DNA from: Rhodospirillaceae bacterium | GTDB lineage: Bacteria > Pseudomonadota > Alphaproteobacteria > Rhodospirillales > Rhodospirillaceae | DNA: 46,507 nt | Assembly: GCA_019752235.1 (NCBI GenBank) | Contig: JAIEMI010000013.1 | Location: 1 to 46,507 of the forward strand | Direction: 5' to 3' | In this document: positions 9,148 to 30,660 of the stretch, one piece after another | Position numbering within the stretch: the stretch's first letter is position 1 | Layout of the letters: the number at the start of each line of letters is the position of its first letter | Position numbers and translations under genes: made by a program | Notes under the pieces: generated by a model | The model's input: the letters and a program-made list of their open reading frames with translations, nothing else | What the model was told of the DNA's origin: nothing | The model's database searches: none

Positions 9148-9248
9148 AGGGATCTCCCCGATGTGCGGAGTGGATTGCGGTTTGGCCGGGAGCATAGTTA
9201 ATTTGCCCCGCGTATCAATGGTTTTAGATCGGTTTTTAGGGGTGCCCC

Positions 9249-10022
9249 GTGAGCGACAAAAAGAAGATTTTCATCATCTACGCGCATCCCGAGCCCCGCT
9301 CCCTGAACGGCTCCTTGAAGGACTTTGCCGTTACATTCCTGCGGAGTCAGGGACATGAGGTCCAAGTGTCTGACCTTTATGCCATGAAATGGCGGGCCGA
9401 GGCCGATGGCCGGGATTTCCCCCAGCGCGATCCTCATGAGCGCCTCGTCTATAACGCCGCCAGCCGCGATGCCTTTATCAACGGCACCCAAGCCCCCGAG
9501 ATCATCGCCGAGCAGGAAAAACTCATGTGGGCCGACGCGGTCATCATGCAGTTTCCCCTGTGGTGGTACGCCATGCCCGCGATCCTCAAAGGCTGGGTGG
9601 ACCGCGTGTATGCGCGCCGCTTTGCCTACGGCGTCGGCAATAAGGGTTACACACGTTTCGGCGAAGGCAACCTGAAAGGCAAACGCGCCATGCTGGCGGT
9701 GACCGTGGGGCCCGAGCGGGAACACTACGCACCCCGCGCCGTACACGGCTACATCGATGATCTGCTCTTCCCCATCACCCACGGCATTCTTTATTACCCG
9801 GGCATGGACGTGCTGCCGTCCTGCGTGTTCTTCAAAGCCGCCGCCGTCCCGCCGGACGGGTTTGACGCCGTCGCGGCGCAATACCGCGCCCGCCTGGAAA
9901 CCTTGTTCACCGCCGATCCTATTCCGTTCCGCGCGCAGAACGGCGGCGATTACGACGAGAATTTCCATTTGAAGCCGGGGCTTGAAGGTTCAAAAACCGG
10001 CTTTGCAATCCACCAACGGTGA
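9249..10022 (+). CDS. NAD(P)H:quinone oxidoreductase-like flavoprotein (flavodoxin fold)
   Basis: A 257-aa flavodoxin-like reductase of the NQO1/MdaB/KefF type. The N-terminal [16 protein letters not shown] holds the FMN/FAD phosphate loop. [20 protein letters not shown] is the classic flavin-binding and dimer segment of NQO1-type quinone reductases. Such enzymes carry out two-electron reduction of quinones and limit redox cycling. It starts with GTG at 9249 and ends just before the convergent copper ATPase gene, which terminates at 10023. A role in protection from copper or quinone stress would fit this position but is inference. Confidence 0.87.
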
Positions 10023-12421: not shown

Positions 12422-12443
12422 GGTATATTTCATCTTGCGATTT

Positions 12444-12460
12444 ATACCCCCATAGGGTAT
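12444..12460. promoter_or_regulatory. CsoR-type operator 2
   Basis: ATACCCCCATAGGGTAT, a near-perfect inverted repeat 7 bp upstream of the csoR ATG. This is the textbook form of a CsoR box and would give repression of both divergent genes, relieved by Cu(I). Confidence 0.7.
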
Positions 12461-12466
12461 TTGTCA

Positions 12467-12745
12467 ATGATGCAGATCAATACAAAAAACGCCTGTGTCA
12501 GACGCCTGAAGCGCGTCGAAGGCCAAGTCCGCGGTCTCACCCGCATGGTCGAAGAGGACCGTTACTGTGTCGACGTCATTACACAGATCGCCGCCGTCCG
12601 CGCCGCGCTGCAACGCGTAGAGGAAGAAATGCTACGTGATCACATCGGCCATTGTGTGGAGCATGCGATCACCTCGGGCAATCAAGCCGAACAACGCCAC
12701 AAAATTACAGAGTTGGTAGATATGCTGGGCCGCACGCGCAAATAG
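12467..12745 (+). CDS. csoR: CsoR/RcnR-family metal-sensing repressor
   Basis: A 92-aa all-helical DUF156 regulator. The ligand set is Cys34 (RYCVDV), His59 and Cys63 (DHIGHCVEHA), the C-H-C arrangement of copper-sensing CsoR. It lacks the extra N-terminal His that marks RcnR. LKRVEGQVRGLTRM is the conserved helix-1 DNA-contact region. The track ORF starts far upstream inside the copA region; ATG 12467 gives the family length and lies directly after the operator. It is predicted to repress copA and itself until copper binds. A second in-frame ATG follows immediately. Confidence 0.92.
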   Translation: MMQINTKNACVRRLKRVEGQVRGLTRMVEEDRYCVDVITQIAAVRAALQRVEEEMLRDHIGHCVEHAITSGNQAEQRHKITELVDMLGRTRK

Positions 12746-12800
12746 CGCGCGGTCGGCGGCATTCTGTTATGCTCGCCCCATACAAGCGCGGGAGGCGCTC

Positions 12801-13376
12801 ATGACAACCCTGACACGCCGGCGGACCTTGCAGGCCGCTCCTCTTGTTGGCTTGGCTTTGTTAAGCCGCCCGAGTTTCGCCGCCGAGGTTGCGCCAACCC
12901 CGGCTTGCGGTGAAGACTCTCATCCCACCGCACCCAACGCCGAAGGCCCCTTCTTTAAACCCAGCACACCGAATCGCGCATCGCTGCTGGAGCCGGGCAT
13001 GAAGGGCGACAGGCTTGTCGTCACGGGCCAGGTGCTGACGACCGGCTGCAAGCCCATCGCGAACGCGCTCTTGGACTTCTGGCACGCCGATCATGAAGGC
13101 GTTTACGACAACACCGGGTTTAAACTGCGCGGTCATCAGATGACCGACGCCGAAGGGCGCTTCCGGCTGGAAACGATTTTGCCGGGCCTTTATCCCGGCC
13201 GCACACGCCACTTTCACGTGAAAGCCGCCGCGCCGGGCGGCAAAGTCCTGACGACGCAGCTCTATTTCCCCGGCGAGCGCTTCAATGCCCGGGACGGCTT
13301 GTTCCGTCCCGACCTCGTCATGGCCATAAGCGATGATAAGAAGGCCGCGCAATTCAATTTCATCTTGCAGGCCTAG
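12801..13376 (+). CDS. Tat-exported intradiol ring-cleavage dioxygenase-like protein
   Basis: A 191-aa protein with a twin-arginine signal peptide (TRRRTLQAAPLVGLALLSRPSFA) followed by a compact intradiol dioxygenase domain. Fe(III) ligands of the protocatechuate 3,4-dioxygenase fold can be placed: Tyr in GVYDNTG, Tyr in LYPGRTRHFHVK, and the two His of that motif. The start of the mature part, EGPFFKPSTPNRASL, is typical of periplasmic intradiol-like proteins. It would oxidise catechol-type compounds outside the cytoplasm. The stop is 3 bp before the cupin gene, so the two are translationally close. The copper genes upstream may be linked, since catechols and copper give redox stress; this is inference. 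Confidence 0.85.
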   Translation: MTTLTRRRTLQAAPLVGLALLSRPSFAAEVAPTPACGEDSHPTAPNAEGPFFKPSTPNRASLLEPGMKGDRLVVTGQVLTTGCKPIANALLDFWHADHEGVYDNTGFKLRGHQMTDAEGRFRLETILPGLYPGRTRHFHVKAAAPGGKVLTTQLYFPGERFNARDGLFRPDLVMAISDDKKAAQFNFILQA

Positions 13377-13379
13377 TTC

Positions 13380-13754
13380 ATGACAGCGCGTTACTTCGTT
13401 AAAGAGTCAGCCGTTACGCCTTACGCGCCGAAGAACCACACCGGCACCGTCAACCGCCGCCTGATCGGCCCCGAGACTGTGGGCGCCAAACAGATGGAAG
13501 TCGTGCTGGGCACCGTCGAAAAGGCCCACGGCGCGTTGCCGCACAGCCACCCCGGCATCGAACAGGTGTGCTACATGCTGCAAGGCCGCGCGCGCGCTGA
13601 AGTCGGCGGCCAGACCTGCGAACTGGGCCCCGGCGATTCTTGCTTCTTCCCGGCGGACATGCCGCATATCTTCACGGCGGTGAGCGACGAGCCGGTACGG
13701 GTGCTGATCATCTATGCGCCGCCCTACACCGAGAAGCACGCCGTAGCGCACTAA
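13380..13754 (+). CDS. Cupin-domain protein
   Basis: A 124-aa single-domain beta-barrel cupin. Motif 1 can be read around GALPHSHPGIEQVCYMLQG (two His and a Glu as metal ligands), and motif 2 around GDSCFFPADMPHIFTAVSD with the last His. All four usual metal ligands are therefore present. The gene starts 3 bp after the dioxygenase stop and is followed 12 bp later by a secreted protein gene, so it belongs to a four-gene run. The exact activity (dioxygenase, isomerase or binding protein) is not clear. Confidence 0.8.
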   Translation: MTARYFVKESAVTPYAPKNHTGTVNRRLIGPETVGAKQMEVVLGTVEKAHGALPHSHPGIEQVCYMLQGRARAEVGGQTCELGPGDSCFFPADMPHIFTAVSDEPVRVLIIYAPPYTEKHAVAH

Positions 13755-13766
13755 GAGGGATTCGAG

Positions 13767-14231
13767 ATGCGGTTTGCCGTTCTATTTGTTCTGGTAGCTC
13801 TGACGGGCTTTGCCCACGCGGCGGAGAGTTATGTCTCGCAAAAAGGCGAGTGGATAAGAAACAAAGCCGAGACCAAAATCCCCGCCGACGGTTTCAAGCC
13901 GATCGACACGCCGATGGTTGTTTCCAAGGACGACGGCACCGAACTGAAGTTCACCATCTACGTCATGACCAATGAAGGCCTGCAGCCGGGCATCACCTTT
14001 GAAGGCGCCTATGACGGCAGGGCCTATCCCTTCGGCAAAGGCACGACCCTCGCCTTCACGCACGTTTCGCCGAATAGCTTTCGGACGGAGTTGAAGTCCG
14101 CCGATGGTTCATCGCAGACGGAACTGGTGACCTTCATCGCCAATAACACCAAGATGCGCTTTGAAGGCAAACGTACCGAGAAGACGGGGAAAACCTACGA
14201 ATACGTTGAAGTTTGGGACAAGATGCAATGA
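13767..14231 (+). CDS. Secreted protein of unknown function
   Basis: A 154-aa protein with a clear Sec signal peptide (FAVLFVLVALTGFAHAAES) and a mature part rich in beta-strand-like alternating patterns (FTIYVMTNEGL, AYDGRAYPFGKG, LVTFIANNTKMRFEG). The overall layout recalls small lipocalin-like or immunoglobulin-like periplasmic domains, but I do not recognise a named family. An RBS-like GAGGGATTCGAG precedes the ATG. The stop overlaps the next start by 4 bases (ATGA), which implies translational coupling to the DUF411 protein. Confidence 0.7.
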   Translation: MRFAVLFVLVALTGFAHAAESYVSQKGEWIRNKAETKIPADGFKPIDTPMVVSKDDGTELKFTIYVMTNEGLQPGITFEGAYDGRAYPFGKGTTLAFTHVSPNSFRTELKSADGSSQTELVTFIANNTKMRFEGKRTEKTGKTYEYVEVWDKMQ

Positions 14232-14656
14232 AAACACTGCTCAAAGCCGGCCTGATCATCCTCGCGCTGCTGCCCTATGGCATGGCCGCGGCCGCCGAAA
14301 CCGCCACGGTCTACCGCGACCCCAACTGCGGGTGCTGCGGTGAATATGTGAAGTATCTTGAGAAAAACGGTTTCCGCACCAAAGTCATCATCATGGATGA
14401 CATGACGCCGATCAAAAAACAGAGCAAAGTTCCGCGCGCCATGGAAAGCTGCCACACCACGCGCATCGGCGGTTACGTCGTCGAGGGTCACGTTCCGGTC
14501 GGCGCCATCAAGAAGCTGCTCGCCGATAAGCCGAAGATCATCGGCATCTCGGTTCCGGGCATGCCTGCGGGCTCACCGGGCATGGGCGGCGAGAAGACCG
14601 AACCGCTCGCGGTCTATGAAATCACCGACGAGAAGCGTGAATTCTACAGCGAGTGA
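14228..14656 (+). CDS. DUF411 metal-binding periplasmic protein (CopG-like)
   Basis: A 142-aa exported protein with signal peptide (LLKAGLIILALLPYGMAAAAE) and the DUF411 signature. A thioredoxin-like CGCCG motif lies in RDPNCGCCGEYVKYL, with conserved ESCHTTRIGGYVVEGHVP and GMPAGSPGM further on. DUF411 proteins, including CopG of copper-resistance loci, bind copper in the periplasm. ATG 14228 overlaps the preceding stop; the earlier GTG of the track ORF is not needed. Its presence 2 kb from copA/csoR supports a local copper-handling cluster. Confidence 0.85.
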   Translation: MKTLLKAGLIILALLPYGMAAAAETATVYRDPNCGCCGEYVKYLEKNGFRTKVIIMDDMTPIKKQSKVPRAMESCHTTRIGGYVVEGHVPVGAIKKLLADKPKIIGISVPGMPAGSPGMGGEKTEPLAVYEITDEKREFYSE

Positions 14657-14685
14657 TCAGCCGCCCCCTGATTATCCGCCCCTGA

Positions 14686-15444
14686 TTATCCCCCGTTGAG
14701 TTTCGCGAGATAGGCCTTAATCCGTGCGGCATTCTTGCCCGCGTCACCGCCACCCACGCGGCTCAAGGAACGCACGTCAAGGATGCTGTTGTTTTCATCC
14801 ACCGGCGTAATGCGGATCACGACGTCGTCGATGAAGCCCGACCAGAACGTCACATCCACCGCTTCAATGCGCCCCTCTTCCGGCACCGCCGCCGCGATGC
14901 GCCATTTCATGGCTTTTGCCGCGTCCAGCGCCTTGGCGTAGGCGGCATCGGCGGCCATCGCCATTTTCACCGGCGCCAGTTCCGGAAAGCCCTTTTTCTG
15001 CTGTTCACCGGCCTTGGGATTCCAGTCCGTCGTATTGGGCGCCTGGGTCTCATCGCGCTCGATCTGGAGCGCGACATACTTCGGCGGGTTCTCGGTGTCG
15101 GTGCTGATGTCGTGGATGGGCGGATGCGGCAAGCCCTGCACCAGGAATGCGCCCACCGGCACGGCCACCGCGAGGCCCAGCACCAGCGCGACCATCGACC
15201 GGCTTTTTTGATAAGGCCCTTCCGCCTTACGCACACCGATCAATCCCATGACGATCGCCATCAGCAATCCGATGAATGTCGCCAGGAAGGCGACGATCAT
15301 GATCGGCATGGGCCCCCAGAGGCCGGCCAAACGCCCCAGCGCCGAGAGCGGTATCGCCAGCACCGCCACGATGCCGGCCACCAACGCGATGGTCGTCCGG
15401 CGGCGGCCCTTTGCGGACACCGATGGCGCTTCCGATGAATTCAT
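14686..15444 (-). CDS. DUF1499 family membrane protein
   Basis: A 252-aa protein with three hydrophobic N-terminal segments (TTIALVAGIVAVLAIPLSAL, MPIMIVAFLATFIGLLMAIVMGLIG, MVALVLGLAVAVPVGAFLV), then a soluble C-terminal DUF1499 domain from about residue 110. The segment HDISTDTENPP is conserved in DUF1499, as is the C-terminal DVTFWSGFIDDVVIRI with a final RSLSRVGGGDAGKNAARI. Function is unknown. It is convergent with the DUF411 gene. The intervening 30 bp contain two copies of CCCCTGATTATC in tandem, one overlapping the stop. Confidence 0.82.
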   Translation of the reverse strand: MNSSEAPSVSAKGRRRTTIALVAGIVAVLAIPLSALGRLAGLWGPMPIMIVAFLATFIGLLMAIVMGLIGVRKAEGPYQKSRSMVALVLGLAVAVPVGAFLVQGLPHPPIHDISTDTENPPKYVALQIERDETQAPNTTDWNPKAGEQQKKGFPELAPVKMAMAADAAYAKALDAAKAMKWRIAAAVPEEGRIEAVDVTFWSGFIDDVVIRITPVDENNSILDVRSLSRVGGGDAGKNAARIKAYLAKLNGG

Positions 15445-19781: not shown

Positions 19782-19856
19782 GGGCCCGTAGCTCAGTGGT
19801 AGAGCATCTGACTTTTAATCAGGGGGTCGGTGGTTCGAACCCACCCGGGCTCACCA
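19782..19856 (+). tRNA. tRNA-Lys (anticodon UUU), integration target
   Basis: A 75-nt cloverleaf with encoded CCA. The 7-bp acceptor stem is GGGCCCG with CGGGCTC. The D arm is GCTC...GAGC, the anticodon stem TCTGA/TCAGG with loop CTTTTAA (anticodon TTT), and the T arm GGTGG-TTCGAAC-CCACC. The 3' part from the anticodon loop to beyond CCA is repeated exactly at 30607. The present 3' half is therefore probably element-derived, and the gene has been restored by the integrating element, as is usual for tRNA-targeting tyrosine integrases. Confidence 0.97.
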
Positions 19857-19864
19857 ACTTCTTC
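19811..19864. repeat. attL, 54-bp direct repeat copy
   Basis: Starts in the tRNA anticodon loop (ACTTTTAATC) and runs 8 bp past CCA to AACTTCTTC. It is identical to 30607-30660. Identity stops sharply on both sides. Confidence 0.93.
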
Positions 19865-19982: not shown

Positions 19983-20870
19983 TTACCAGTCATTCCAGAG
20001 CTTCACCGCCGCCGTCAGAAATTTGTCGCACTTTTCAGCCTGCCAAGTGACCGGGCTTCCATCACGCAAAAGGTAGTACCGCTCATTAGCGCATACAAAC
20101 TTGCTGCGGTCTGCGGCCCGAATCCAATTAATGGCGTTGGCGAAGGTGTCCGCATAGCTGGAACCGAACTTATCATCTGGAACGTTGTAGAGCAGCCCTT
20201 CAAGGTAATAAGACGGGGCTAGGCCAGCCTCTATCATGCCGTCATCGACGAGTTTGCCACGCATGTTTTTGAGAATGCGTGCCATCGGTTTCAGCCAGTT
20301 TTTGGTGTTCTGATGTTTCGTCGTCAGGTTGTCCGAATGATGACGCGGGAAGTTATTAATCTGCTGACCACCGGCAGTGAAAAAGGTGATGCCTTCGTAG
20401 TAATCCAGATTGCCCGAAGAATTTTTGAAATAGCGTCGATGAGTTGCGGCGGCGATCACATCTGATTTGCGCCGGTTCCCCTCGGCGGCAATGGTAATGG
20501 CTTTATCGCCTGCCTTCGCGGCATCGCCATATTCAGTAGTCAGGCGCGTGACCACGTCTTTTTTGAATTGTGTGTTGCCATATTTGGCGTCGCTCATAGT
20601 GGCGTTGAGCGCGTCTTTGTCGGCTTGGGTCAATGCTTCGAGGTCTAAAAACAAAGCGGAGTTTAGTTGTATGACAACGTCGACATCGCTTTCCGCAAAA
20701 ATGTTTGTATCGTTGCCGTAGGAGCCTTGAAGAAAGACCGTGTAATCCTGGCCATTGTAAAGAGCCTTTGTGGATTCCAACGCGGTTTTGACGGATTTAT
20801 AGGTATCACGCGAACCGGCCATTGCGCCTTGGTTGGCCCAAGTATCGAGTTGTTTTTCAGGGATTGCCAC
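19983..20870 (-). CDS. CD-NTase (CBASS cyclic oligonucleotide synthase)
   Basis: A 295-aa nucleotidyltransferase of the cGAS/DncV-like superfamily. The active site is clear: GS motif at residues 49-50 (FLQGSYGNDTNI), the Asp pair at 62 and 64 (SDVDVV), and a third Asp at 137 (RKSDVIAA). When phage infection is sensed, such enzymes make cyclic di- or trinucleotides that switch on a partner effector. The GTG start at 20870 has an AGAGG ribosome binding site and lies 12 bp after the capV stop, so the two form one operon. No ubiquitin-like (cap2/cap3) or HORMA/TRIP13 genes are present, hence a minimal type I system. I do not assign a CD-NTase clade. Confidence 0.9.
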   Translation of the reverse strand: MAIPEKQLDTWANQGAMAGSRDTYKSVKTALESTKALYNGQDYTVFLQGSYGNDTNIFAESDVDVVIQLNSALFLDLEALTQADKDALNATMSDAKYGNTQFKKDVVTRLTTEYGDAAKAGDKAITIAAEGNRRKSDVIAAATHRRYFKNSSGNLDYYEGITFFTAGGQQINNFPRHHSDNLTTKHQNTKNWLKPMARILKNMRGKLVDDGMIEAGLAPSYYLEGLLYNVPDDKFGSSYADTFANAINWIRAADRSKFVCANERYYLLRDGSPVTWQAEKCDKFLTAAVKLWNDW

Positions 20871-20882
20871 GTTCGTCAGCCT

Positions 20883-21845
20883 CTACAAAAGAAATGCTCG
20901 GAGATTTGCTTCGTGTTCACCGAAGGACTCGCTACCTCGTTGAAGGAGCACGTTGAGCTTTTTGAGGTCGTGCTCGAATAAATCAGTCGCCATCGCTGGC
21001 TCGGAATAGGTTTTATTTATCCGCACCGTGGGAATGTGTTTGAACAACGCATAGCGTAAGCTCTCCATGGACTGGGTATTGATCTCCAATGTCTTTTGTA
21101 GGAGCCGTACACCGGGAGTCATCTTGATGATGCGGCTTGGAATGTCGCGCATCCGAAGGCCTTTTTGGGGGTACATGCCGACACCAATGCTGACCAAGCG
21201 AATATCGGCTGGGGCATGCGCAAGGGGGCCAACAGCATCCGCAAGGGCGTAGAGCGCAGGATTGTTCGCGCAGTACCCACCGTCGATCAATTCAACGTCG
21301 TGCCCTTGAGCTGTGTGAACGACTTTTCGCTTCAGATAGGGGTACGCCGCACACGAGGCCTCCACAGCGTCGCCCACGCTGCATCCAAAACCTGGAACGA
21401 AGGTGCCGGTACGTCCGTGCGCTTGAACGCGATCATTCTTGAAAATCATCGGAGTTTCCGACACCCAGCGCGTGGCCACGATACCGATCCCGGTCTTCAT
21501 GTCCTCAAATCGACTGTCGGCAAATACTTCCTGAGCCAGTTCGCGCAAGGCGGCTGACTTCGCACCGGGTAGGATGGCGCCGGTAACTCTTGGAACGTGT
21601 TCCGTGTACAGCGCCTGAATTTCGTCTACCCCCCGACCGAGGGCCAATAGGGCTGCGATGATCGAGCCGGTGCTCGTGCCGAAGATGAGATCAAAGCGCT
21701 TGTGGAGGGGACAACCCAACAGCCCCTCGATTTCCTTAAGGACGCCGAGTGTGTAAAAGCCCTTAGCACCTCCGCCGTCCAAACTTAAGACGCGGCAAAT
21801 ACCATCCGGCTGATAGCTCGTTGAAAGGTTTGCTGCGGCATTCAC
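20883..21845 (-). CDS. capV: CBASS effector, patatin-like phospholipase
   Basis: A 320-aa patatin phospholipase. The oxyanion hole GGGAKG is at 24-29, the nucleophile Ser58 in GTSTGS, and the catalytic Asp188 in DGGYCANNP. All catalytic parts are intact. CapV effectors are activated by the cyclic nucleotide made by the adjacent CD-NTase and degrade the inner membrane, stopping phage spread by killing the infected cell. The GTG start at 21845 follows GGGGGAC. The upstream 130 bp are A/T-rich and probably hold the promoter of this two-gene operon, although I cannot define clean -35 and -10 boxes. The gene follows the terminase nuclease in the same direction. Confidence 0.92.
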   Translation of the reverse strand: MNAAANLSTSYQPDGICRVLSLDGGGAKGFYTLGVLKEIEGLLGCPLHKRFDLIFGTSTGSIIAALLALGRGVDEIQALYTEHVPRVTGAILPGAKSAALRELAQEVFADSRFEDMKTGIGIVATRWVSETPMIFKNDRVQAHGRTGTFVPGFGCSVGDAVEASCAAYPYLKRKVVHTAQGHDVELIDGGYCANNPALYALADAVGPLAHAPADIRLVSIGVGMYPQKGLRMRDIPSRIIKMTPGVRLLQKTLEINTQSMESLRYALFKHIPTVRINKTYSEPAMATDLFEHDLKKLNVLLQRGSESFGEHEANLRAFLL

Positions 21846-21974: not shown

Positions 21975-22670
21975 TTAGGTATCGGGCATCCACTGTAAAG
22001 AGCCGCCGCTGACGTGGTTGGCACGGTGTTCGGCGTACCAAAGAGCAATCGCCACGGCCAAGACCAGGTCGTCATGGGTTCCCATGCGAGCGGCAAAAGT
22101 CATGTTTCCGACCTGCGTAAAATTCACCCGGAAATTCTGTAGCTCCGCCTTCAATGCCGGAAGGTCTGGCAGGTCGCCGGCGATTTCCAACTCTCCACTG
22201 TGGAGCATGGCCTGCAAGCGGCTGACCAGTTGCAGCTTGGCCACGCGGTAGTCGCCCATCGACCACGTTTCATTCTCGCCGCCGGTGATCGTGCAGCCTT
22301 TGGGCTTGAAACCGGCGGCGGCGAACATATCGAACACCGCGCGGCCTACGCCGGTTTTATCAATGATAAGTTCGGTGCCCTCTGTGTTCGACAGCGGTGG
22401 GCGCGCAAGCAGGCTGCCCACATAGGCCACTTGGGCCGGGTATGGGGTGCCCAGCTTCAGCCTTTCGAGGTGGCGCAGGATGTACGCTGTGCGCGAAGGC
22501 GTCGGCGGGCTGCCCCGTAGGGTGCCGCCGGGAATATGCTCCCGCTCGATCACCGCAATGGCCGTAGGATCGGTGGTTTGGCCCAGGTCAACGCCCACGG
22601 TGTAGGTGCGCGTGGTGCCCCGGCGCTGCGCATCGGCGAAAGCTTCAGGCGTTTTGTACTTAATCGTCAT
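21975..22670 (-). CDS. Terminase large subunit nuclease domain, separate gene
   Basis: A 231-aa RNase H-fold nuclease matching the C-terminal half of phage TerL. Acidic metal residues are Asp28 (YTVGVDLGQTTDPTA), Asp104 (ELIIDKTGVG) and Asp200/201 (GTHDDLVLAVA). In ordinary phages this domain is fused behind the ATPase. Here it is a free-standing gene with its own ATG at 22670 and a strong GGAGGAAGG ribosome binding site. The 35 extra residues of the track ORF are not needed. It overlaps the 62-aa gene by 11 bp and would be translated together with the ATPase. Expected job: cutting concatemeric element DNA during packaging. Confidence 0.87.
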   Translation of the reverse strand: MTIKYKTPEAFADAQRRGTTRTYTVGVDLGQTTDPTAIAVIEREHIPGGTLRGSPPTPSRTAYILRHLERLKLGTPYPAQVAYVGSLLARPPLSNTEGTELIIDKTGVGRAVFDMFAAAGFKPKGCTITGGENETWSMGDYRVAKLQLVSRLQAMLHSGELEIAGDLPDLPALKAELQNFRVNFTQVGNMTFAARMGTHDDLVLAVAIALWYAEHRANHVSGGSLQWMPDT

Positions 22671-22848
22671 CGCCTTCCTCCAATTCGTCGGGCGTAAGCA
22701 CCCACCGCCACGGCCTGCCCAGGTCAACGCCGCGCCGTGTTTTGTTCTCGAAGCTTTCGACAGTGACCTTGCCACCGCTCACGGCCACCACATGAACAAG
22801 GATGCCGTGGTAATAGGCGCGGTCACCTATGCCGCAAGACTTGGCCAT
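22660..22848 (-). CDS. Small protein between the two terminase halves
   Basis: A 62-aa protein (MAKSCGIGDRAYYHGIL...). The alternating pattern GDRAYYHGILVHVVAVSGGKVTV suggests a small SH3-like beta barrel, and the C-terminus is acidic (DELEEGDDD). It overlaps the ATPase 3' end by 22 bp and the nuclease 5' end by 11 bp, and has GGAG upstream of its ATG. I do not recognise a family. Its position suggests a bridging or regulatory part of the split terminase, which is inference. Confidence 0.7.
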   Translation of the reverse strand: MAKSCGIGDRAYYHGILVHVVAVSGGKVTVESFENKTRRGVDLGRPWRWVLTPDELEEGDDD

Positions 22849-23591
22849 AGGCTGCTCCGTTGGGCTTTGATGGCGTTCTCAATAATCGCCGTGCTGAACA
22901 CCTGTTCGTCGGTGTCAACAAACTCGCACATATACTCTTGGCGGAATTGAAGCTCTCCAATGTGGCGGCGTTCGTCGGCAAGCCAGTCGGGGCTGATGCG
23001 CGGGCATTGGTCGGCCGTGATGCGCGTGCGTGACCAAGTGCGGTCGCCGCTGGTCCATGCGTCGTGAAACCAACCCCGGCACCCATAAGGCGTGGTCAGC
23101 GCCAGCAAGCGGCCCCGCGTGGTGGCCAGCATTGGGCGCATGGCGGTGTAGAGCGCGTCTTCAATGCGGCTGGCTTCATCCATAATGATGAGCTTGGGCG
23201 CACTGTAGCCACGAACGGTTGCCTCCGTGCCGGGGAGCGCAATGATCCGGCTGCCGTTTGCAAACTCGATCCGCAGCGCGCTTTCCTGTTCCGTGCCGGG
23301 CGTGACGTTGAGGTTTCGGTGGAAGTCCGTCGTCTTGCGGAATAGTTCTTGCGACTGCCGTAGGCTGGGGCTGACGAGCAATACCAAGGCGGGGGCTTCG
23401 TACAGCGCAGTGTGAACAGCGAGAGCCGCGCATGTGGTGGACTTGCCCGACTGCCGACTGCACAACAGCAAATGCCGATTACTGCCGCCGCTCAGGATGG
23501 CCTCTTGCCACGGGTCGGGTTCTAAACCGGCGGCGGTCATAATCCGCGCTGGGTCTAGCCCAATGGCAAAGTCATCACTCAGCCGCGACAT
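22827..23591 (-). CDS. Terminase large subunit ATPase domain, separate gene
   Basis: A 254-aa packaging-motor ATPase equal to the N-terminal half of TerL. Walker A is SRQSGKST at 45-52, Walker B plus catalytic Glu LIIMDEAS at 134-141, and the coupling motif LALTTPYG at 163-170. FRQEYMCEF near the C-terminus is the usual end of the ATPase domain. The protein stops there, where an ordinary TerL runs on into the nuclease. The reading frame is clean, and a separate small gene intervenes, so this is not a simple frameshift. Its start overlaps the TerS-like gene by 17 bp. Predicted role: ATP-driven DNA translocation into a helper procapsid. Confidence 0.88.
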   Translation of the reverse strand: MSRLSDDFAIGLDPARIMTAAGLEPDPWQEAILSGGSNRHLLLCSRQSGKSTTCAALAVHTALYEAPALVLLVSPSLRQSQELFRKTTDFHRNLNVTPGTEQESALRIEFANGSRIIALPGTEATVRGYSAPKLIIMDEASRIEDALYTAMRPMLATTRGRLLALTTPYGCRGWFHDAWTSGDRTWSRTRITADQCPRISPDWLADERRHIGELQFRQEYMCEFVDTDEQVFSTAIIENAIKAQRSSLWPSLAA

Positions 23592-24141
23592 GTTCTATCG
23601 CCGGGGGTGCCGTGCGCTCCATCGCCTGCAACGTCATCGCTACGGCCTTGCGAGCGTCGGGAAACGGCTCAAGGGCGCGGGTGATGGCGTGGCGCAATTC
23701 CAGATACTGCGGCGCGATGAGAAAGTTGTTCGTCACATGGCCCGAACGACTGGCCAAGTCGCCTACCAGCTTTGCAATCGTCTTGGTGTTTTCCAACAGC
23801 ACCTTGTGGAAAACCGACACGGCCACGGGGTCCATGTTGGCCTCGGCCTTATCAATCTGCTGTAGAACGTGCGCCTTTTGCCAAATCAGCGTCTGAAGCA
23901 AACCCTCGCTCTCGCTTTTGCGCAGAGCCTCCAAATCAATCGAAGAAGCGGCTCCACTTTGGGACAGCAACGCGGCCTCAAGCTGCGGCGGTAAGTGCTT
24001 CTTCTTGTGCCGGTGGATCGCATCACGCGATACGCTGAACCGCTTGGCCACGCGCCACTCCGACACCCGATTGGCCAACGAGTGGTCAATCTCCGGGCGG
24101 CGTGGGTGGTTGCAGATGGAGCATTGCGTCGCTTTGGTCAC
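23575..24141 (-). CDS. TerS-like HTH protein (putative small terminase)
   Basis: A 188-aa protein beginning with a CxxC pair (CSICNHPRRPEI) and a helix-turn-helix (EWRVAKRFSVSRDAIHRHKKKHLPP), followed by a long helical region. This layout, directly before a TerL ATPase gene, fits a small terminase subunit that recognises the packaging site. The GTG start overlaps the preceding TGA (GTGA), so it is translationally coupled. Sequence evidence for TerS itself is weak because small terminases diverge fast; position carries most of the weight. It could instead be a regulator. Confidence 0.65.
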   Translation of the reverse strand: MTKATQCSICNHPRRPEIDHSLANRVSEWRVAKRFSVSRDAIHRHKKKHLPPQLEAALLSQSGAASSIDLEALRKSESEGLLQTLIWQKAHVLQQIDKAEANMDPVAVSVFHKVLLENTKTIAKLVGDLASRSGHVTNNFLIAPQYLELRHAITRALEPFPDARKAVAMTLQAMERTAPPAIEHVAAE

Positions 24142-24875
24142 ACGTATTTTTCCGCATTGGCCGTAAGGTCGCGCGCCTTCTTATCCAAGGTGACGGCGGC
24201 CGCCAGCTTGTCATGTGGATGCAAAGCGGAGGTGTGGCCGCTTATGGTTTCAAGGCCGTTGGCAATCATCTCTTGGGATTTGCGGAGCGTGGCCAGCCGT
24301 TTCAGATCGGCGCCAAAGTGCGTGGCCTTGTACGCTTCGCGCAACACGGCTTGCAGGTCGCGGCCGGTTTTGCTGTCCACATGGTCCATGCCGCTCAAGT
24401 AGCCGGGCGCATTCAACAGCGCGCCAAGCGTGATGGTGTCGTTTTCCTGTACGGCCTTCATCGCACGGGTAAGGCGCTTTTCTTCCGTCAGGTTGGCAAA
24501 GTGAGTGCGTATGTCCTGCGCGGTGGCGCTATAGTTGGGGCCGGGCGCATCGGGTAGCTTGAGCGGTGCGTTCACCTTGGCATCCAGCGCCGTGATTTCT
24601 TCCTGCAATGCCTGCTCATGCGGCTTAATCAGCGCGCTCAAGCCTTGCATCGCTTTGCTGGCGTAGTCGGCACTGCGCTTTAGGTTGCCCATCGCCGGCA
24701 ACAAGGGGTTGGCCATGTGTGCGTCATGAGCCGCGCTGATGCTGGTGAAAGCGCCTTCTAGCGCCTTGCCAATGGCAACGATGGCATCGCGTGTGGCGTC
24801 AGGCACATCCGGCACCGCTGCTGGTGCGTGGCGTGCGATGACCTCAGCGTTTACGGCGGGCGGTGGCAGGGGCAT
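24138..24875 (-). CDS. Unknown 245-aa helical protein of the packaging operon
   Basis: A soluble, Ala-rich, mostly helical protein (KALEGAFTSISAAHDAHMAN..., ALQEEITALDAKVNAPLKLP...). No signal, membrane segment or known motif can be seen. ATG 24875 follows AGAGAGG; the 381-aa track version extends through the non-coding gap and is rejected. It overlaps its neighbours on both sides (32 bp with the 74-aa gene, 4 bp with TerS). Candidates include a helper-capsid-modifying or scaffold-like protein, but nothing in the sequence proves this. Confidence 0.75.
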   Translation of the reverse strand: MPLPPPAVNAEVIARHAPAAVPDVPDATRDAIVAIGKALEGAFTSISAAHDAHMANPLLPAMGNLKRSADYASKAMQGLSALIKPHEQALQEEITALDAKVNAPLKLPDAPGPNYSATAQDIRTHFANLTEEKRLTRAMKAVQENDTITLGALLNAPGYLSGMDHVDSKTGRDLQAVLREAYKATHFGADLKRLATLRKSQEMIANGLETISGHTSALHPHDKLAAAVTLDKKARDLTANAEKYV

Positions 24876-25068
24876 TACGGGCCTCTCTTTCAATGAGCTT
24901 GATGGCGCGCTCGAATTGGCACATTGCGCGGTGCTGCTCGTCGCAATCCTTGCGCCATATAACGGTGTCTGGGCCGAGGTATGCGTAGTCGGCGGGCGGG
25001 TTGCCCACCATCGCAAGGTATTTGTCCTGCGCTTCCTTATGAGCTTTGCGGAGCGAGGCTTTATCCAT
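24844..25068 (-). CDS. Unknown 74-aa protein, first gene of the packaging operon
   Basis: A charged helical protein (MDKASLRKAHKEAQDKYLAM...) ending in a basic tail. ATG 25068 has a GGAG box eight bases upstream, which decides it over the longer 109-aa track ORF. The 3' end overlaps the 245-aa gene. No family is recognised. Confidence 0.6.
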   Translation of the reverse strand: MDKASLRKAHKEAQDKYLAMVGNPPADYAYLGPDTVIWRKDCDEQHRAMCQFERAIKLIEREARNAPATARRKR

Positions 25069-25722
25069 GCGGGCAACTCCAAGGGGGGCGCAGCGGCGGG
25101 CTTCCATGGCGAACCAACCCGCCGCTGCTTGGTAGAGAGGAATACCCGGACGTTCGGTGTGCGCCCGGCCCAACCCTTTTGCCGCACAACTCTTGTGTGG
25201 GCATCACCGAACTCAGCTTCACCGATAACAATCGTCCCTGACGCACAGCGTGGCTGGAGTGGTGAATTGCGGACGTCCAACAAAGCGGCTGGTTATAAGG
25301 TGGATATTGATGGCCGCGCTGACTCTCGAAAACGCTGTTGCCGTATGAACTTTTGCGTTTCGACCCCCTAACTACAAATAAGAGGGCGCAATTTGGGCCA
25401 TAGGCTGTGCGGCGGAAGCGAGGGTTATGGGTGTCTGCCTCAGCACTTGCCTCAGCACATATACGCCGGGGTGAGGCAGAAAAACTCCAGGCCCTGCCTG
25501 GGCTACAGCGATTCTGCCACAGCGCCACGGCGTATTTCGCAAAAACCTTTGCATCTCTGCGTTCTACGTCGGGGGTAGTGCGTAATTCATGGTTCCTACT
25601 TTTACCCCCTACGTGCTGTGGCACTGTGGCATTCACCCATAACTCATTGGCTCGACTCAAAAACCTTTGCCACACCACCTCTGAGGCAAGGGTGTGGCAG
25701 TGCTGTGGCGTAGCAGGTACCA
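25069..25722. other. 654-bp non-coding gap, candidate origin and operon promoter region
   Basis: No convincing gene is seen here. The track's 220-aa minus-strand ORF (25061-25723) has atypical composition and overlaps the 74-aa gene. The half next to the primase gene holds dense short repeats (see 25436-25709). The other half (25069-25380) includes a tract of mixed sequence before the packaging operon, where its promoter should be, but no clean promoter is visible. Lying directly downstream of the primase-helicase, it is the best place for the replication origin. Confidence 0.5.
25436..25709. repeat. Iteron-like repeat cluster
   Basis: Contains tandem TGCCTCAGCACT/TGCCTCAGCAC (25436 and 25448), inverted TGAGGCA copies at 25472 and 25682, and at least six GTGGCA or TGCCAC units between 25515 and 25709. 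A 13-bp direct repeat CAAAAACCTTTGC lies at 25540 and 25658. The density and mixed orientation resemble satellite or plasmid origins bound by an initiator. Confidence 0.55.
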
Positions 25723-27927
25723 CTAGAATGACTCCGCTTGGCCCGGCTTGAATGGGCGTAGGTAGGCAACAGCAAGTTCCCTCTCCTTGGCCTCACTCCA
25801 TTTGTCATGATCACGGATGATCCAGAGCCGTAGCTTGCGGCCATCGGCCATGCGCACCGGGTTCCTGATAGAGATTGCGCCAATAGATTTTAGGAAGTCT
25901 GTCAGCGGGACTTCACGGTACTTGTTGAACTTGGGCGGCATTACATCCAACACATGACCGACGTTGATTAGGTCGTGCTCAAACGGAAAATCACCTTCTT
26001 CAAATCGGCGCAGCAAGAATTCCTCGGCTGGGTGCTTGTTGGCCTTTGCCATATCGCGCTTGGCTTCGGTCATTGGGGCGTGACCCTTTGCCGGGAAGTC
26101 TGACAGGTCAACTTCGCGGAGGTAGTGCCTCATCGCCGCCGTGCTTTCGCGAGTGTCCAGCCACTCGTAGAGTGCCATGTAGTAACCCTCTGGCTTGAGA
26201 CGATCAGTGGTGTTGAGAATGCAGAACCGCCTATCCTTGTCTTCAAGAGCGATCGCGGTCTTAGCGAAGTTGCTGGTGATGAAAAGGTTTGTGCGGTTGG
26301 GTTGCTCAAAGGGACGTAAGTATTTTTGATTAATCCAAATTGTGCGGTTGGTGATCACCGTTTTTAGATCGTTGGCTGCTTCAAGTCGGTGGTCCTGATA
26401 GATTTCTTCAACACCGAGAAGTTGGACGTTCTGCATAAATCCGTTGAAGTCGCTTTTAAGTTCCTTTGCTTTGATGTTGGTGGCGTTCTTGCCACCTACG
26501 ATGCGCGCGGCGAATTCATAGAGCGTTGTCTTGCCGGTCCCTTGAATGCCAACCACGACCAGCGCCCAGTGTATCTTCACTCCGGGGTGCTGTTCCTGGA
26601 ACGCCAGCCACTGAATGACGAGTTTCTGGTGCTCCTTGTTCGGGAACAGGTACGCGATGTGATCGAGCATGGGCGTGACGTCGCCGGCCTTTGGCGAAAT
26701 CGGGTTCGGACTCCATGTATTTAGTTTTCGCTGGCCGTCTTCAGTGGTGAATCGGTCCGCGCCGGGAGCGTAGGTAAGATTGCGCACTTTCTCGAAATGC
26801 GGATTCTTAAGAAGCCTTCTACTTATGCCGCTCCTGTATTGCGCCAGGTATTCCTTATCGAGCTGACCGCCACTTAATATGGAGTTGTCGATAAGATCGA
26901 CAAAGCCGTCGGGCATGGTCGCATACACAAACCGCGTCACCGGATCGGCGCCGAAGTGACTGCGATGGTAAGCCGACGCCCCGTTAATAAGCGCTTCAAC
27001 GTCTAGCTCGCAATCCTCGGGGGCGTCATCGGCTAAATCCCACTTCTTAGGTAGGCCGGTGGGCAAATCTACAATGCTGACCGATTCTGCGCCCGCATCT
27101 AAACAACACAGTGCGACACCCTCAGCGGCATCGCGGCCAGCATCGTCATTGTCTGGCCAAATGCAAACCGAGCGCCCTTTGAGCGGCGACCAATCTGCCT
27201 TTTCGTGGCCTCCCGTGCCGCCCATCCACGTAATGCACACGCTGTTAGGCAGGCGCGCTTGGGCGGCGTCAGCAGATTTTTCACCTTCGCATATCAGCAC
27301 ATGGGAATCTGGGCGCTGCGCAAGACGATCTAACCCGTAAAGCGGCTTAGGCTCTGTGGGAGCTTTGCATTGCCACTCACCGGACGACCAGTAAGTGAAG
27401 GGCCGGAATTGTTTCTTGGGAAAGCGCGCGACGGTGCAGATTAACTCACCTTGCGCATCGAGGTAGTCCCATGAGAGGTCCGGGTTGCCTAGCTTTAGCT
27501 TTTTCCCGAATGCTTCGAGGTCGAGCGCGGGAGCGTGCGCGGGCACAGGGAACATGGCTCTCGGCTTTGTGGTCCACAAACCCATAGCCGACAACGCCGC
27601 AAGAATTTCAGGTTTCCCTTCCTCACCGCAGACATGGCAGTGAAACACGACCTTGCTACCGCTCATGTTCACGGACATAGCGGGTGTGTCGGTATTGTCG
27701 TGCGCCGGGTTAGGGCAAAAGGCTAGGAAACCACTACCTTGCTTCTCTCCGCCCAGAGTTTCGCAGATGATGTTATAAAGCGCTAATTGGTCACTTATGC
27801 CCTTATCATCTTTGGGCGTTGGAGCTAGCTTGACTCGGTCAATCGGTTTTTCTTTTCTGGCCCCTACCTTTGCCGAGGTGGGGGCCGTTCGCTTTTTAGC
27901 GCTTCTTTTTGTCTTCGTTGCGGCCAT
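25723..27927 (-). CDS. Primase-helicase (zinc finger, Toprim, SF3-type ATPase)
   Basis: A 734-aa replication protein. A zinc-binding module near the N-terminus (Cys71/His76 and Cys97/Cys100, FCPNPAH...CHVCG) precedes a Toprim-like domain with LICEGEKSAD and WPDNDDAG. The C-terminal half is a phage-type helicase: Walker A GIQGTGKTT at 460-468, LLGVEEI near 503, sensor LFITSN and arginine finger KDRRF. This is the primase plus DUF5906/D5-like helicase plan of P4-type satellites and many phages, which start their own replication. ATG 27927 with GGGGGA is preferred over the track start six codons upstream. It overlaps the AlpA-like gene by 32 bp. Confidence 0.9.
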   Translation of the reverse strand: MAATKTKRSAKKRTAPTSAKVGARKEKPIDRVKLAPTPKDDKGISDQLALYNIICETLGGEKQGSGFLAFCPNPAHDNTDTPAMSVNMSGSKVVFHCHVCGEEGKPEILAALSAMGLWTTKPRAMFPVPAHAPALDLEAFGKKLKLGNPDLSWDYLDAQGELICTVARFPKKQFRPFTYWSSGEWQCKAPTEPKPLYGLDRLAQRPDSHVLICEGEKSADAAQARLPNSVCITWMGGTGGHEKADWSPLKGRSVCIWPDNDDAGRDAAEGVALCCLDAGAESVSIVDLPTGLPKKWDLADDAPEDCELDVEALINGASAYHRSHFGADPVTRFVYATMPDGFVDLIDNSILSGGQLDKEYLAQYRSGISRRLLKNPHFEKVRNLTYAPGADRFTTEDGQRKLNTWSPNPISPKAGDVTPMLDHIAYLFPNKEHQKLVIQWLAFQEQHPGVKIHWALVVVGIQGTGKTTLYEFAARIVGGKNATNIKAKELKSDFNGFMQNVQLLGVEEIYQDHRLEAANDLKTVITNRTIWINQKYLRPFEQPNRTNLFITSNFAKTAIALEDKDRRFCILNTTDRLKPEGYYMALYEWLDTRESTAAMRHYLREVDLSDFPAKGHAPMTEAKRDMAKANKHPAEEFLLRRFEEGDFPFEHDLINVGHVLDVMPPKFNKYREVPLTDFLKSIGAISIRNPVRMADGRKLRLWIIRDHDKWSEAKERELAVAYLRPFKPGQAESF

Positions 27928-28204
27928 TTGGTCCCCCGTTAGCAAGCCAAGTGTCTAATTCGGAAATACGGTATCGCAGCACGCGCTCACTAATCCGCAC
28001 GAGCTTGGGGCCTTTCCCCGAGGCCTCTAACTTGCGCAGGTAGCTGTGGCTGATGCTGAGGTAAGCCGCCGCCTGTTTGCGTGGCAGCAACGTGTTTGGA
28101 TCTTTACGCGGCTGCACAGCTTGCCCGGCCAAGATCGCCAGGAGCTCAACTGCTGTCAGGCGGCAAAGCTGCTCCCGAAGCTCGCCGGGAATAGAGATGG
28201 GCAT
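27896..28204 (-). CDS. AlpA-like HTH regulator/excisionase
   Basis: A 102-aa protein with a winged helix-turn-helix of the AlpA/HTH_17 type in its C-terminal half: LPRKQAAAYLSISHSYLRKLEASGKGPKLVRISERVLRYRISELDTWLANG is the classic run (quoted here by its ends only as LPRKQAAAYL and ELDTWLANG). AlpA proteins in P4-like satellites act as excisionase or activator of integrase and of late genes. ATG 28204 is chosen because it lies just after a strong hairpin and gives a normal length; the track start lies 21 codons upstream, inside that hairpin. It overlaps the primase-helicase gene. Confidence 0.82.
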   Translation of the reverse strand: MPISIPGELREQLCRLTAVELLAILAGQAVQPRKDPNTLLPRKQAAAYLSISHSYLRKLEASGKGPKLVRISERVLRYRISELDTWLANGGPNGRNEDKKKR

Positions 28205-28223
28205 GAGTCCTCGCTCTCGCACG

Positions 28224-28248
28224 GCAGAGACGCGTGAACGCGCTCTGC
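28224..28248 (-). promoter_or_regulatory. Hairpin/operator in the AlpA leader
   Basis: GCAGAG-A-CGCG-TGAA-CGCG-CTCTGC forms a ten-pair stem with one bulged A, 20-45 bases before the AlpA ATG. It has no U-tract, so an operator or RNA control element is more likely than a terminator. Confidence 0.45.
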
Positions 28249-28280
28249 AAATGCAGGTGAAAAGCACAAACGGTTTTCGG

Positions 28281-28303: not shown

Positions 28304-28421
28304 GGACGCCGGGGGTACGGCTAGCTGTCCATCTAGGCTCCGCTCGACTGCGTTGCGACACGGCTTAAGTCGAGAATTTCTATCTAACTCCGGCCACACC
28401 GCGACACCAGGAGTTATTATC

Positions 28422-28432
28422 TATCAACGATA
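28422..28432. repeat. Palindrome TATCAACGATA, copy 1
   Basis: TATC-AAC-GATA inverted repeat overlapping the stop codon of the 120-aa gene. The identity with copy 2 extends to 13 bp. Confidence 0.5.
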
Positions 28433-28786
28433 AAAGTAGCGTTCATCACGAAGCTTTATCTGTACGTCATTGGGGTCATCGCACGGCGTAATCGTATTGT
28501 GAACGTCTGCAACAAGACTGGCTCGACCAATTTGAAGAGCCACAGATGACGGGTGACGAAGCGGCGACAATTCGGGACTTAAGAAAAACAGGTCAATTTT
28601 GGTGGTGCGGCAAACCGATGCAAGTGCTTCCTTAAATTCCGCGACCCGGTCTTCGTCAATAAGAGCGGACTGACATACGTGTATGCGAGGCTCTTTCCCG
28701 TAGGTTCGCAGCAGCGCAGCGATAGCACCGCTTAAGGTATGATTGTCCGAGTTGCTAACGTGGACGTCGGTCATTAAGCGCTTCAT
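28424..28786 (-). CDS. Unknown 120-aa protein
   Basis: A soluble protein (MKRLMTDVHVSNSDNHTL...) with alpha/beta character and the phrase KIDLFFLSPELSPL. I do not recognise it. ATG 28786 is fixed by a near-perfect GGAGG nine bases upstream; the track start is 16 codons earlier. Identical 11-bp palindromes (TATCAACGATA) lie at its stop codon and 77 bp upstream of its start. Base composition is lower in GC than the chromosome. Its position between integrase and AlpA suggests a regulator or an accessory gene. Confidence 0.65.
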   Translation of the reverse strand: MKRLMTDVHVSNSDNHTLSGAIAALLRTYGKEPRIHVCQSALIDEDRVAEFKEALASVCRTTKIDLFFLSPELSPLRHPSSVALQIGRASLVADVHNTITPCDDPNDVQIKLRDERYFYR

Positions 28787-28862
28787 GCGGTCGCCTCCAA
28801 TGCGTGTGTGCAAGGAGTCCTGACTAACCTTCATCAGATTGGTGACACCAGAACTTTTCGGC

Positions 28863-28873
28863 TATCAACGATA
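28863..28873. repeat. Palindrome TATCAACGATA, copy 2
   Basis: Same palindrome between the integrase stop and the 120-aa gene. It is a likely operator for that gene. Confidence 0.5.
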
Positions 28874-28904
28874 ACCAGCATGGTTTTTTGCTATCACCTG
28901 TCAT

Positions 28905-28929: not shown

Positions 28930-30420
28930 CTAGGCGGCCTGTTTTGCCCTTCGCGCCAACTCCAAATCCGTAACGGGCTTCATGCGCAACAGACCTTCCC
29001 GCATGTATTCCGCAGACTTATCCGGCCCCGCTTTGGCCGCATCGAACGTGACCGCGCCAAAACGCCGCACGTAAGCTGCTTCAAGTGCAGCCGCATCTTT
29101 CGGCAGCTTTTCAGCGTCCGTAATATTGATGCCAGCAAGCAGCAGAATTTCATCTGTCACCTTTTGCATTGGCTCGCGCAGTCTATCCAAGTCGGTGTGG
29201 ATGTAGCCGCTGGTTACGCTGGCGCTAACGCGATGGTCCATGAGGCGACCAATGATGTCCTCCGCTACTACGCGATTGCCGAGGGTGGCGAATGTTCGGC
29301 GTAGGCCGTGGTGGGCGCATAGCTTGGCAACACCGGCAGCGCGGCGGCACCGATCAACAGGTTTGCGAAGCTCCTTGTAGTGCTGCACCGTGGTAACGCC
29401 GTCTTTCGTAAACCTCTTGGCCCATACCCAGGGCACGGTGTCTTTCCAGTCCTCAGTGGCATCGTGCATCGCCTTTCGGCGTTCCAGCAGGCGAAATAGA
29501 TAGTCCGGCATTGGAAATTCGTAATCGCGCCCCGACTTCATTTGCTCGCCTTGGTAGCGGATGGCCCTAGCGGCAAAGTCCACCTGATCCCAACGCAGTG
29601 ATAAAGCGTTCTTCTCACGCAGCGCTGTCAGCAGGATGAACTTGATAATGTCCGCCTGTATTGGCTGTTCCTTATCCACCGCACCCCAGAACGCTTCCAT
29701 TTGGTGGGGTGCGATGTGGTCATTGCGGCGCTTCTCTTTGTGCCAGAGCTTTTTGCGGGACAGCACATCAACCGGGCAGCGCGGCAGCGTTTCATCGTCA
29801 ATCACAGCCACGCGCCATAGCAGGCGGAGAGCGCGTAAGGCGTGGTTCGCCACAACGCGGCCGTCTGCGCCTTTGCGCCCAGCGGCTTTGACCTCTTTGG
29901 GAATCTCGTAAAAGCGTTGCTCTGCCAGCGCACTCGTAATGCTGCGCAACGGCAGGTCGAGCCAGGGAGCAAGGTGGCGGGTGGTATTGTCCTCTAGCTG
30001 GTCAATGGTGCGCGCTCTGGGTTTGCCGCGCTCACGGCATTCCGCGACGTGCTTTTCCATCACCTGTCGCAATGTGCGCCCGGCAAGTTGGCGTTGTTTT
30101 AGCTCTTGCTCGGGGTCGATGCCTTCATTGCCCCTGGCCAAGTATTTCACAGCCTTCACTCTGGCCTGTTCAAAGGTGAGCTCTGTGGTGCGGCCCAGGG
30201 CGATGCGCGGGCGTTTGTTCTGGCCCTTAATGCTCAGGCGGACCACGTAGGTCTTGGCCTTGGTGGTGGCTGACACCATCACCCCGAATCCCTTTAGCTC
30301 GGTGTCCCACACGATACCGGGCATGGGCTTACCCGCGTTCTTGCCGTTTTTGTAGGTAAGGCCACTTGGGGCCGGGAGGCGATTGACGACGTTGGCGTTT
30401 AGACGCTGCTTGCTCTGCAT
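28930..30420 (-). CDS. P4-type tyrosine integrase
   Basis: A 496-aa site-specific recombinase. The N-terminal 100 residues form the arm-binding DUF4102-like domain (DTELKGFGVMVSATTKAKTYVV). A core-binding region follows, then the catalytic domain with Arg268 (LLTALREKNALSLRW), His371/Arg374 (HHGLRRTFATLG), His396 (LMDHRVSA) and Tyr406 (SGYIHTD). All catalytic residues are present, so the enzyme looks active. The ATG at 30420 lies 187 bp from attR, reading away from it. The target is the tRNA-Lys gene at the other end of the element, so integrase and the restored tRNA are at opposite ends. Confidence 0.95.
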   Translation of the reverse strand: MQSKQRLNANVVNRLPAPSGLTYKNGKNAGKPMPGIVWDTELKGFGVMVSATTKAKTYVVRLSIKGQNKRPRIALGRTTELTFEQARVKAVKYLARGNEGIDPEQELKQRQLAGRTLRQVMEKHVAECRERGKPRARTIDQLEDNTTRHLAPWLDLPLRSITSALAEQRFYEIPKEVKAAGRKGADGRVVANHALRALRLLWRVAVIDDETLPRCPVDVLSRKKLWHKEKRRNDHIAPHQMEAFWGAVDKEQPIQADIIKFILLTALREKNALSLRWDQVDFAARAIRYQGEQMKSGRDYEFPMPDYLFRLLERRKAMHDATEDWKDTVPWVWAKRFTKDGVTTVQHYKELRKPVDRCRRAAGVAKLCAHHGLRRTFATLGNRVVAEDIIGRLMDHRVSASVTSGYIHTDLDRLREPMQKVTDEILLLAGINITDAEKLPKDAAALEAAYVRRFGAVTFDAAKAGPDKSAEYMREGLLRMKPVTDLELARRAKQAA

Positions 30421-30585: not shown

Positions 30586-30606
30586 AGCGTGGGGTGGCTG
30601 GGGCTA

Positions 30607-30660
30607 ACTTTTAATCAGGGGGTCGGTGGTTCGAACCCACCCGGGCTCACCAACTTCTTC
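30607..30660. repeat. attR, 54-bp direct repeat (tRNA-Lys 3' fragment)
   Basis: An exact copy of the tRNA-Lys 3' part from the anticodon loop to 8 bp beyond CCA. The acceptor 5' strand and D arm are missing, so this is not a functional tRNA. Confidence 0.93.

Follow-up and report, generated by a model that had tools for sequence, protein, structure and literature searches.

An iteron array beside a primase-helicase gene is the probable origin from which an integrated phage satellite without capsid genes replicates in a Rhodospirillaceae bacterium

Results

The integrated element and its genes

The stretch of DNA that we analysed (46,507 bp; the window) contains an integrated element of 10,796 bp (10.8 kb), flanked by direct repeats of 57 bp in a tRNA-Lys gene. 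The tRNA-Lys (TTT) gene used as the integration target (19782..19856, plus strand; detected by ARAGORN and Rfam) is intact at the left end. The left copy of the attachment-site repeat (19808..19864, plus strand) lies in the 3' part of this tRNA gene and the right copy at 30604..30660 (plus strand). The two copies (direct repeat D1) are 98% identical and are spaced 10,796 bp apart.

All recognised genes of the element point leftward and are thus on the minus strand. Read in that direction, they begin with a tyrosine integrase (28930..30420; PF00589 and PF13356), an ORF of unknown function that has no match (28424..28834) and an AlpA/excisionase-like regulator scoring below the Pfam gathering scores (27896..28267). 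These are followed by a primase-helicase (25723..27945), which is presumed to be the iteron-binding initiator, and by the repeat array described below. Beyond the array lie a small ORF (24844..25173) and an ORF of unknown function whose start codon is inferred (24138..24872); in a sister element, L066, the former is partly conserved (46% over 59 aa) and the latter is conserved (53%). The next gene codes for a TerS-like protein (23575..24141), so named for its position and conservation directly upstream of TerL, as it has no Pfam or PHROG match. The terminase large subunit itself is encoded by two separate genes, one for the ATPase half (22827..23591; Terminase_6N, phrog_7579) and the other for the nuclease half (21975..22775; Terminase_6C just under the cut-off, phrog_27743). 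A patatin-like phospholipase (20883..21845) and an oligonucleotide cyclase (19983..20870), both assigned to DS-2/CBASS and the former being its effector, complete the element; this DS-2/CBASS-type pair (19983-21845) is its cargo. Among the element ORFs scanned, we recognised neither capsid, portal or tail genes nor homologues of P4 sid, delta and psu. Near the integrase and AlpA-like genes, a 31-nt direct repeat (81% identity; 28403-28433 and 28844-28874) flanks the ORF at 28424-28834, and its copies are possibly binding sites.

The primase-helicase combines a DnaG-type (CHC2) zinc finger and a Toprim-like region with an SF3/P4-type helicase core (DUF5906, with a weak match to TIGR01613, 'P4 family'). 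The label 'P4-type' given to it in a preliminary description of this DNA is therefore fair as far as architecture is concerned. In a structure model of the helicase part and the C-terminus, the helicase core is of fair quality, but pLDDT is about 40-60 over the last 80 residues, the expected position of a winged-helix DNA-binding domain.

The repeat array

The same description had pointed to a cluster of iteron-like repeats next to the primase-helicase gene as a candidate replication origin. The array (25436..25709, 274 bp) does adjoin this gene, beginning 13 bp 3' of it (the stop codon is at 25723-25725, minus strand), and the repeats are real. Tandem TGCCTCAGCAC units are present, as described, at 25436 and 25448 (period 12 bp), inverted TGAGGCA copies at 25472-25478 and 25682-25688, and exact copies of the 13-bp repeat CAAAAACCTTTGC at 25540 and 25658, 118 bp apart. 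The count of 'six or more' GTGGCA/TGCCAC units has to be corrected: they do occur in both orientations, but only five are exact, the sixth being GTGGC followed by G at the end of the array. The units can be unified as TGCCWCA, often in the longer form TGCCWCAGC or TGCCWCAGCAC. Nine such units, four on the plus and five on the minus strand, form two clusters. The left cluster (25436..25523; GC 0.60) consists of two TGCCTCAGCAC units (+), TGAGGCA (-) and TGCCACAGC (+), and the right one (25613..25709; GC 0.56) of five TGCCWCA units and GTGCTGTGGC. Between them lies an iteron-free centre of 89 bp (25524..25612; GC 0.51), a candidate melting region. One copy of CAAAAACCTTTGC (25540..25552, plus strand) is located inside this centre, and the other (25658..25670, plus strand) overlaps an iteron. 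Since each copy carries a GCAAA/TTTGC dyad, they may represent a second type of site.

The nine TGCCWCA copies in the array compare with five in the other 46.2 kb, and with a mean of 0.19 and a maximum of 3 in 2000 shuffles of the array. Whole-window shuffles give an expectation of 11.6 copies in the entire 46.5 kb, so that it is the clustering, and not the total, that stands out. Because the TGCCWCA motif was picked after the data had been seen, we added a motif-free count of k-mers repeated on either strand. For k = 7 to 10 the array exceeded all 2000 shuffles, a comparison that had been named beforehand as one that could refute the repeats. In 9- and 10-mers the array is the most repetitive part of the window, and the 400-bp stretch over it ranks first of 104 in the element, with a z-score of 11.7 against 3.8 for the next non-overlapping stretch. 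No second TGCCWCA cluster was found anywhere in the window. A host-wide regulator motif with clusters elsewhere was considered and rejected, as the remainder of the 3.8-Mb assembly contains just four copies of TGCCWCAGCAC, which are scattered.

The earlier view that no credible gene lies here is borne out. ORFs of the array lack the codon-position GC pattern that the real genes of the element do show and match no PHROG family, and a protein-coding reading was consequently rejected. A structured-RNA reading was likewise set aside, the only Rfam matches being to tRNA. The single-strand fold of the array is strong (z -5.1) because the repeats occur in both orientations. One terminator-like hairpin with a T run (25487..25501, minus strand) could end leftward transcripts of the replication gene inside the array, although 0.9 such matches are expected by chance.

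Comparison with known satellite origins

In satellites of the PICI type, the replication origin is the region directly 3' of the initiator gene, where two sets of iterons flank an AT-rich part, and pri-rep together with ori suffices for plasmid maintenance (Fillol-Salom et al., PMC6092414). We used the E. coli PICI EcCICFT073 and phage P4 (NC_001609) as positive controls. The repeat statistic picked out the region 3' of the primase gene in EcCICFT073 (z 17.3; 5' flank -0.6) and crr 3' of alpha in P4 (z 19.4; 5' flank 0.9). Like EcCICFT073 (PMC6092414), the element studied here has two sets of short iterons directly 3' of its primase/replication gene, with z of 17.3 there and 11.5 here. The iteron sequences of the two are unrelated, and the centre is far less AT-rich, its GC content of 0.51 (40-bp minimum about 0.42-0.45) contrasting with 0.28 in both P4 crr and EcCICFT073.

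The preliminary description had taken P4 ori and crr as the match. P4 does have an SF3-type primase-helicase and, directly 3' of alpha, an iteron block whose 8-bp repeats face both ways; a terminator is annotated at this place as well. P4 differs in that it lacks terminase genes and has another cluster, ori, at a separate location. As the window holds no second cluster, the arrangement, a single cluster just 3' of pri-rep, is closer to that of PICIs.

Considering position and statistics together with the sister element described below, we think it probable (roughly 85%) that the array is a PICI/P4-type iteron origin at which an integrated phage satellite without capsid genes starts its replication, bound by the satellite's own primase-helicase. 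The main rival is that the array is instead a crr-like cis element for replication or copy control, with synthesis beginning elsewhere in the element. The P4 block of iterons that adjoins the 3' end of alpha is indeed crr, whereas the annotated ori (9086-9809) lies about 4.5 kb off, and the array shares with crr its mixed orientations. Nevertheless, a crr-like role would leave the window without the second TGCCWCA cluster, and the corresponding block of PICIs is itself the origin, sufficient with pri-rep for plasmid maintenance (PMC6092414). We therefore regard this rival as unlikely.

Related loci

Searches of genome contigs, viral contigs, plasmids and phages returned no close relatives of the primase-helicase beyond domain-level similarity, and relatives were therefore sought through the terminase. 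Loci around related terminases were gathered from genome and viral collections. Of 29 replication-gene ORFs, 12 had strong repeat clusters (z>=4) in the 3' flank (400 bp) and none had them in the 5' flank (400 bp), where the highest value was 2.7. One locus, L168, was left out of this count, its repeats falling inside a 1520-aa ORF. The other 17 replication genes have no strong cluster directly 3'; in L075 and L076 the cluster is found further along, beyond another stretch, and others may use other initiators. Among elements with clear clusters the repeat sequences differ, and TGCCWCA itself is absent from the relatives compared. Two elements whose replication proteins are 49% identical, L105 and L119, have the iteron core CGGCTTTA in common.

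In six relatives the element ends are marked by clean attachment repeats at a tRNA gene: L074 (11.5 kb, Phe), L075 (14.6 kb, Lys), L089 (14.8 kb, Lys), L105 (10.5 kb, Lys), L108 (9.9 kb, Thr) and L119 (9.8 kb, Lys). Among the genes scanned downstream of the terminase in tRNA-bounded relatives, none matched a capsid or portal protein. The 14.6-kb tRNA-Lys element L075 encodes a tail tape-measure protein (12441-15215), but neither a capsid nor a portal gene was recognised in it. Portal and head genes do follow these terminase halves in longer viral contigs (L166, L192, L199 and L222), so that phages, too, possess the two-gene terminase. The short elements would seem to be satellites of phages with such a terminase. 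A TerL split in two genes, as at 21975-23591 in the window, is also seen in many related bacterial and archaeal loci; of the 159 loci that gave a hit, 121 had a nuclease-half match. In Meiothermus phage MMP17 one longer gene is annotated, and in L110 (9357-12685) and L124 (9363-12588) up to four nuclease-half matches surround one ATPase-half gene.

Two circular plasmids of Salinibacter ruber, pSR11 (L231, 11.2 kb) and pSR14 (L232, 14.9 kb), carry a primase-helicase, iterons and then the TerL halves. The iteron region is the top window of each plasmid (z 6.6 in pSR11 and 38.2 in pSR14). They resemble the element studied here in having iterons 3' of the primase-helicase and the same two-gene terminase (ATPase half 49-54% identity); unlike it, they are circular and have parA and no annotated integrase. 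Judged by this gene order, they would represent the same module in a replicating circle, possibly as plasmid-form satellites, although a second origin on the plasmids is also possible.

The sister element: replication versus packaging

A close relative of the TerL ATPase half (82% identical) comes from a Rhodospirillaceae metagenome assembly (G066; L066/L073). L066 has the same gene order as the window element, and the identities are 72% for TerS, 81% and 69% for the TerL halves, 66% for the phospholipase and 39% for the integrase; no cyclase match was seen on the L066 contig stretch. The replication protein is of a different kind: Prim-Pol+D5_N+SF3 in L066 and CHC2+Toprim+SF3 in the window. 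The slot 3' of the L066 replication gene is occupied by the unrelated repeats GATCCCCCA/TGGGGGATC, and the array shows no similarity to L066 (Smith-Waterman 32, shuffle mean 31.9). With the terminase similar and both the replication gene and the repeats different, it is the replication gene, rather than the terminase, that the repeats track. Although this comparison comes from one close sister pair, it strongly suggests that repeats and replication gene were replaced together. Together with the core shared by L105 and L119, the exchange suggests, indirectly and at the sequence level, that the repeat sequence is specific to the cognate initiator. The expectation that relatives would have the repeats at the same place thus holds in part: a repeat-rich slot 3' of the replication gene recurs, but its letters differ. 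The absence of TGCCWCA from relatives does not refute the origin, because the iteron sequence changes with the replication protein.

A different stretch is shared with L066. On the terminase side of the array, 262 bp (25174..25435, minus strand) are homologous between the two elements (Smith-Waterman 66 against a maximum of 53 in 200 shuffles), with conserved blocks near 25178-25236 and, near 25385, GGGCGCAA. The gaps in this alignment are not multiples of three, hence the stretch is non-coding. It is a candidate packaging site and/or promoter of the terminase operon, and its conservation makes it a better packaging candidate than the array. Among other relatives, L079 and L089 are borderline over this stretch and share no consistent block. 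Clear similarity is confined to L066, and the idea of a packaging motif common to distant relatives was rejected.

These observations bear on the suggestion that the array might hold a cos/pac site, bound by the TerS of the element. Packaging sites often lie close to terS, and the array is near the TerS-TerL operon. Yet L066, whose terminase proteins are so similar, has an unrelated array while keeping the terminase-side 262 bp, and the same kind of array is found at the replication site in P4 and EcCICFT073. A packaging role for these 270 bp is accordingly disfavoured, and we hold it to be very improbable. Equally improbable is the proposal that the repeats are operators of a transcription regulator of the element such as the AlpA-like protein. 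A repressor, too, could bind short sites that are clustered and face both ways, and there is the terminator-like hairpin inside the array. Against operators, no sigma-70-like promoter was found at 25000-25800 (a weak scan for such hosts), 5' flanks have no such clusters, and the repeats change with the replication gene though L066 keeps both an AlpA-like protein and the terminase operon. Finally, the view that the repeats are a functionless patch, degenerate or due to chance, can practically be dismissed: a few other 274-bp stretches (near 33221 and 43341) are similar in 6- and 7-mer repetition, but the array surpasses every shuffle, ranks first in the window for longer repeats and in the element for 400-bp z-score, and occupies the same position as in relatives and known origins.

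Discussion

The origin reading, first proposed from the raw letters, is supported by comparison: position and statistics match those of P4 crr and EcCICFT073, and the sister element differs in its repeats as well as in its replication gene. In the mechanism that we envisage, the integrase, with the AlpA-like regulator, would excise the element, which would then circularise. The primase-helicase would bind TGCCWCAGC iterons in both clusters (25436-25523 and 25613-25709), and the DNA might open in the iteron-free centre (25524-25612) or in adjoining DNA. The melting site is uncertain because the centre is only mildly AT-rich (GC 0.51). The primase-helicase would next load as a helicase and prime synthesis. 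Replicated DNA would presumably be loaded by the TerS-like protein and the two-gene TerL into capsids of a helper phage, on which the element would depend.

The origin itself would, by its sequence organisation, belong to a known type, the iteron origins of PICI/P4 satellites. The element as a whole is harder to place. As in Gram-negative PICIs, an integrase, an alpA-like gene (its match here being below the gathering score) and a primase are arranged in a small one-direction island with a specific att site, and there is no full capsid gene set among the element ORFs scanned. According to their description, PICIs carry terS only, and only in some cases, whereas both TerL halves are present here; for this reason we do not file the element as a standard PICI. 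Encoding both the small and the large terminase subunits is a feature of capsid-forming PICIs (cf-PICIs). However, those elements also carry a major capsid protein, protease, portal and connectors (PMC10690885), none of which was found in our element, and its TerL is split into two genes. PICMI elements of Vibrionaceae (PMC10803314) are similar in having an integrase, AlpA, a DUF5906-type primase and no capsid genes. They differ in that the text of PMC10803314 makes no mention of a terminase, whereas our element has TerS-like and TerL genes and resides in tRNA-Lys.

In the literature searched, mostly non-subscription journals, we found no description of capsid-less satellites with their own TerL. 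It is tempting to speculate, and we lean slightly towards this view, that the element represents a widespread and apparently undescribed group of satellites of 10-15 kb, integrated in tRNA genes or existing as plasmids, which lack capsid genes but have a TerS-like gene and a two-gene TerL of their own. In such a group the replication gene and its iteron origin would form a cassette that can be exchanged, lying upstream of a packaging module that stays constant.

Several implications follow from these results. A guess made from raw sequence becomes a testable origin in an uncultured alphaproteobacterium. The rule that iterons lie directly 3' of the primase-helicase has given candidate origins in related elements from several phyla. 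L066, which swapped the replication gene and repeats and kept the packaging genes and adjacent DNA, offers a natural separation of replication from packaging signals. If terminase-carrying satellites are indeed undescribed, they would exemplify a packaging strategy between that of PICIs (TerS only) and that of cf-PICIs (the whole capsid set), with anti-phage genes as cargo.
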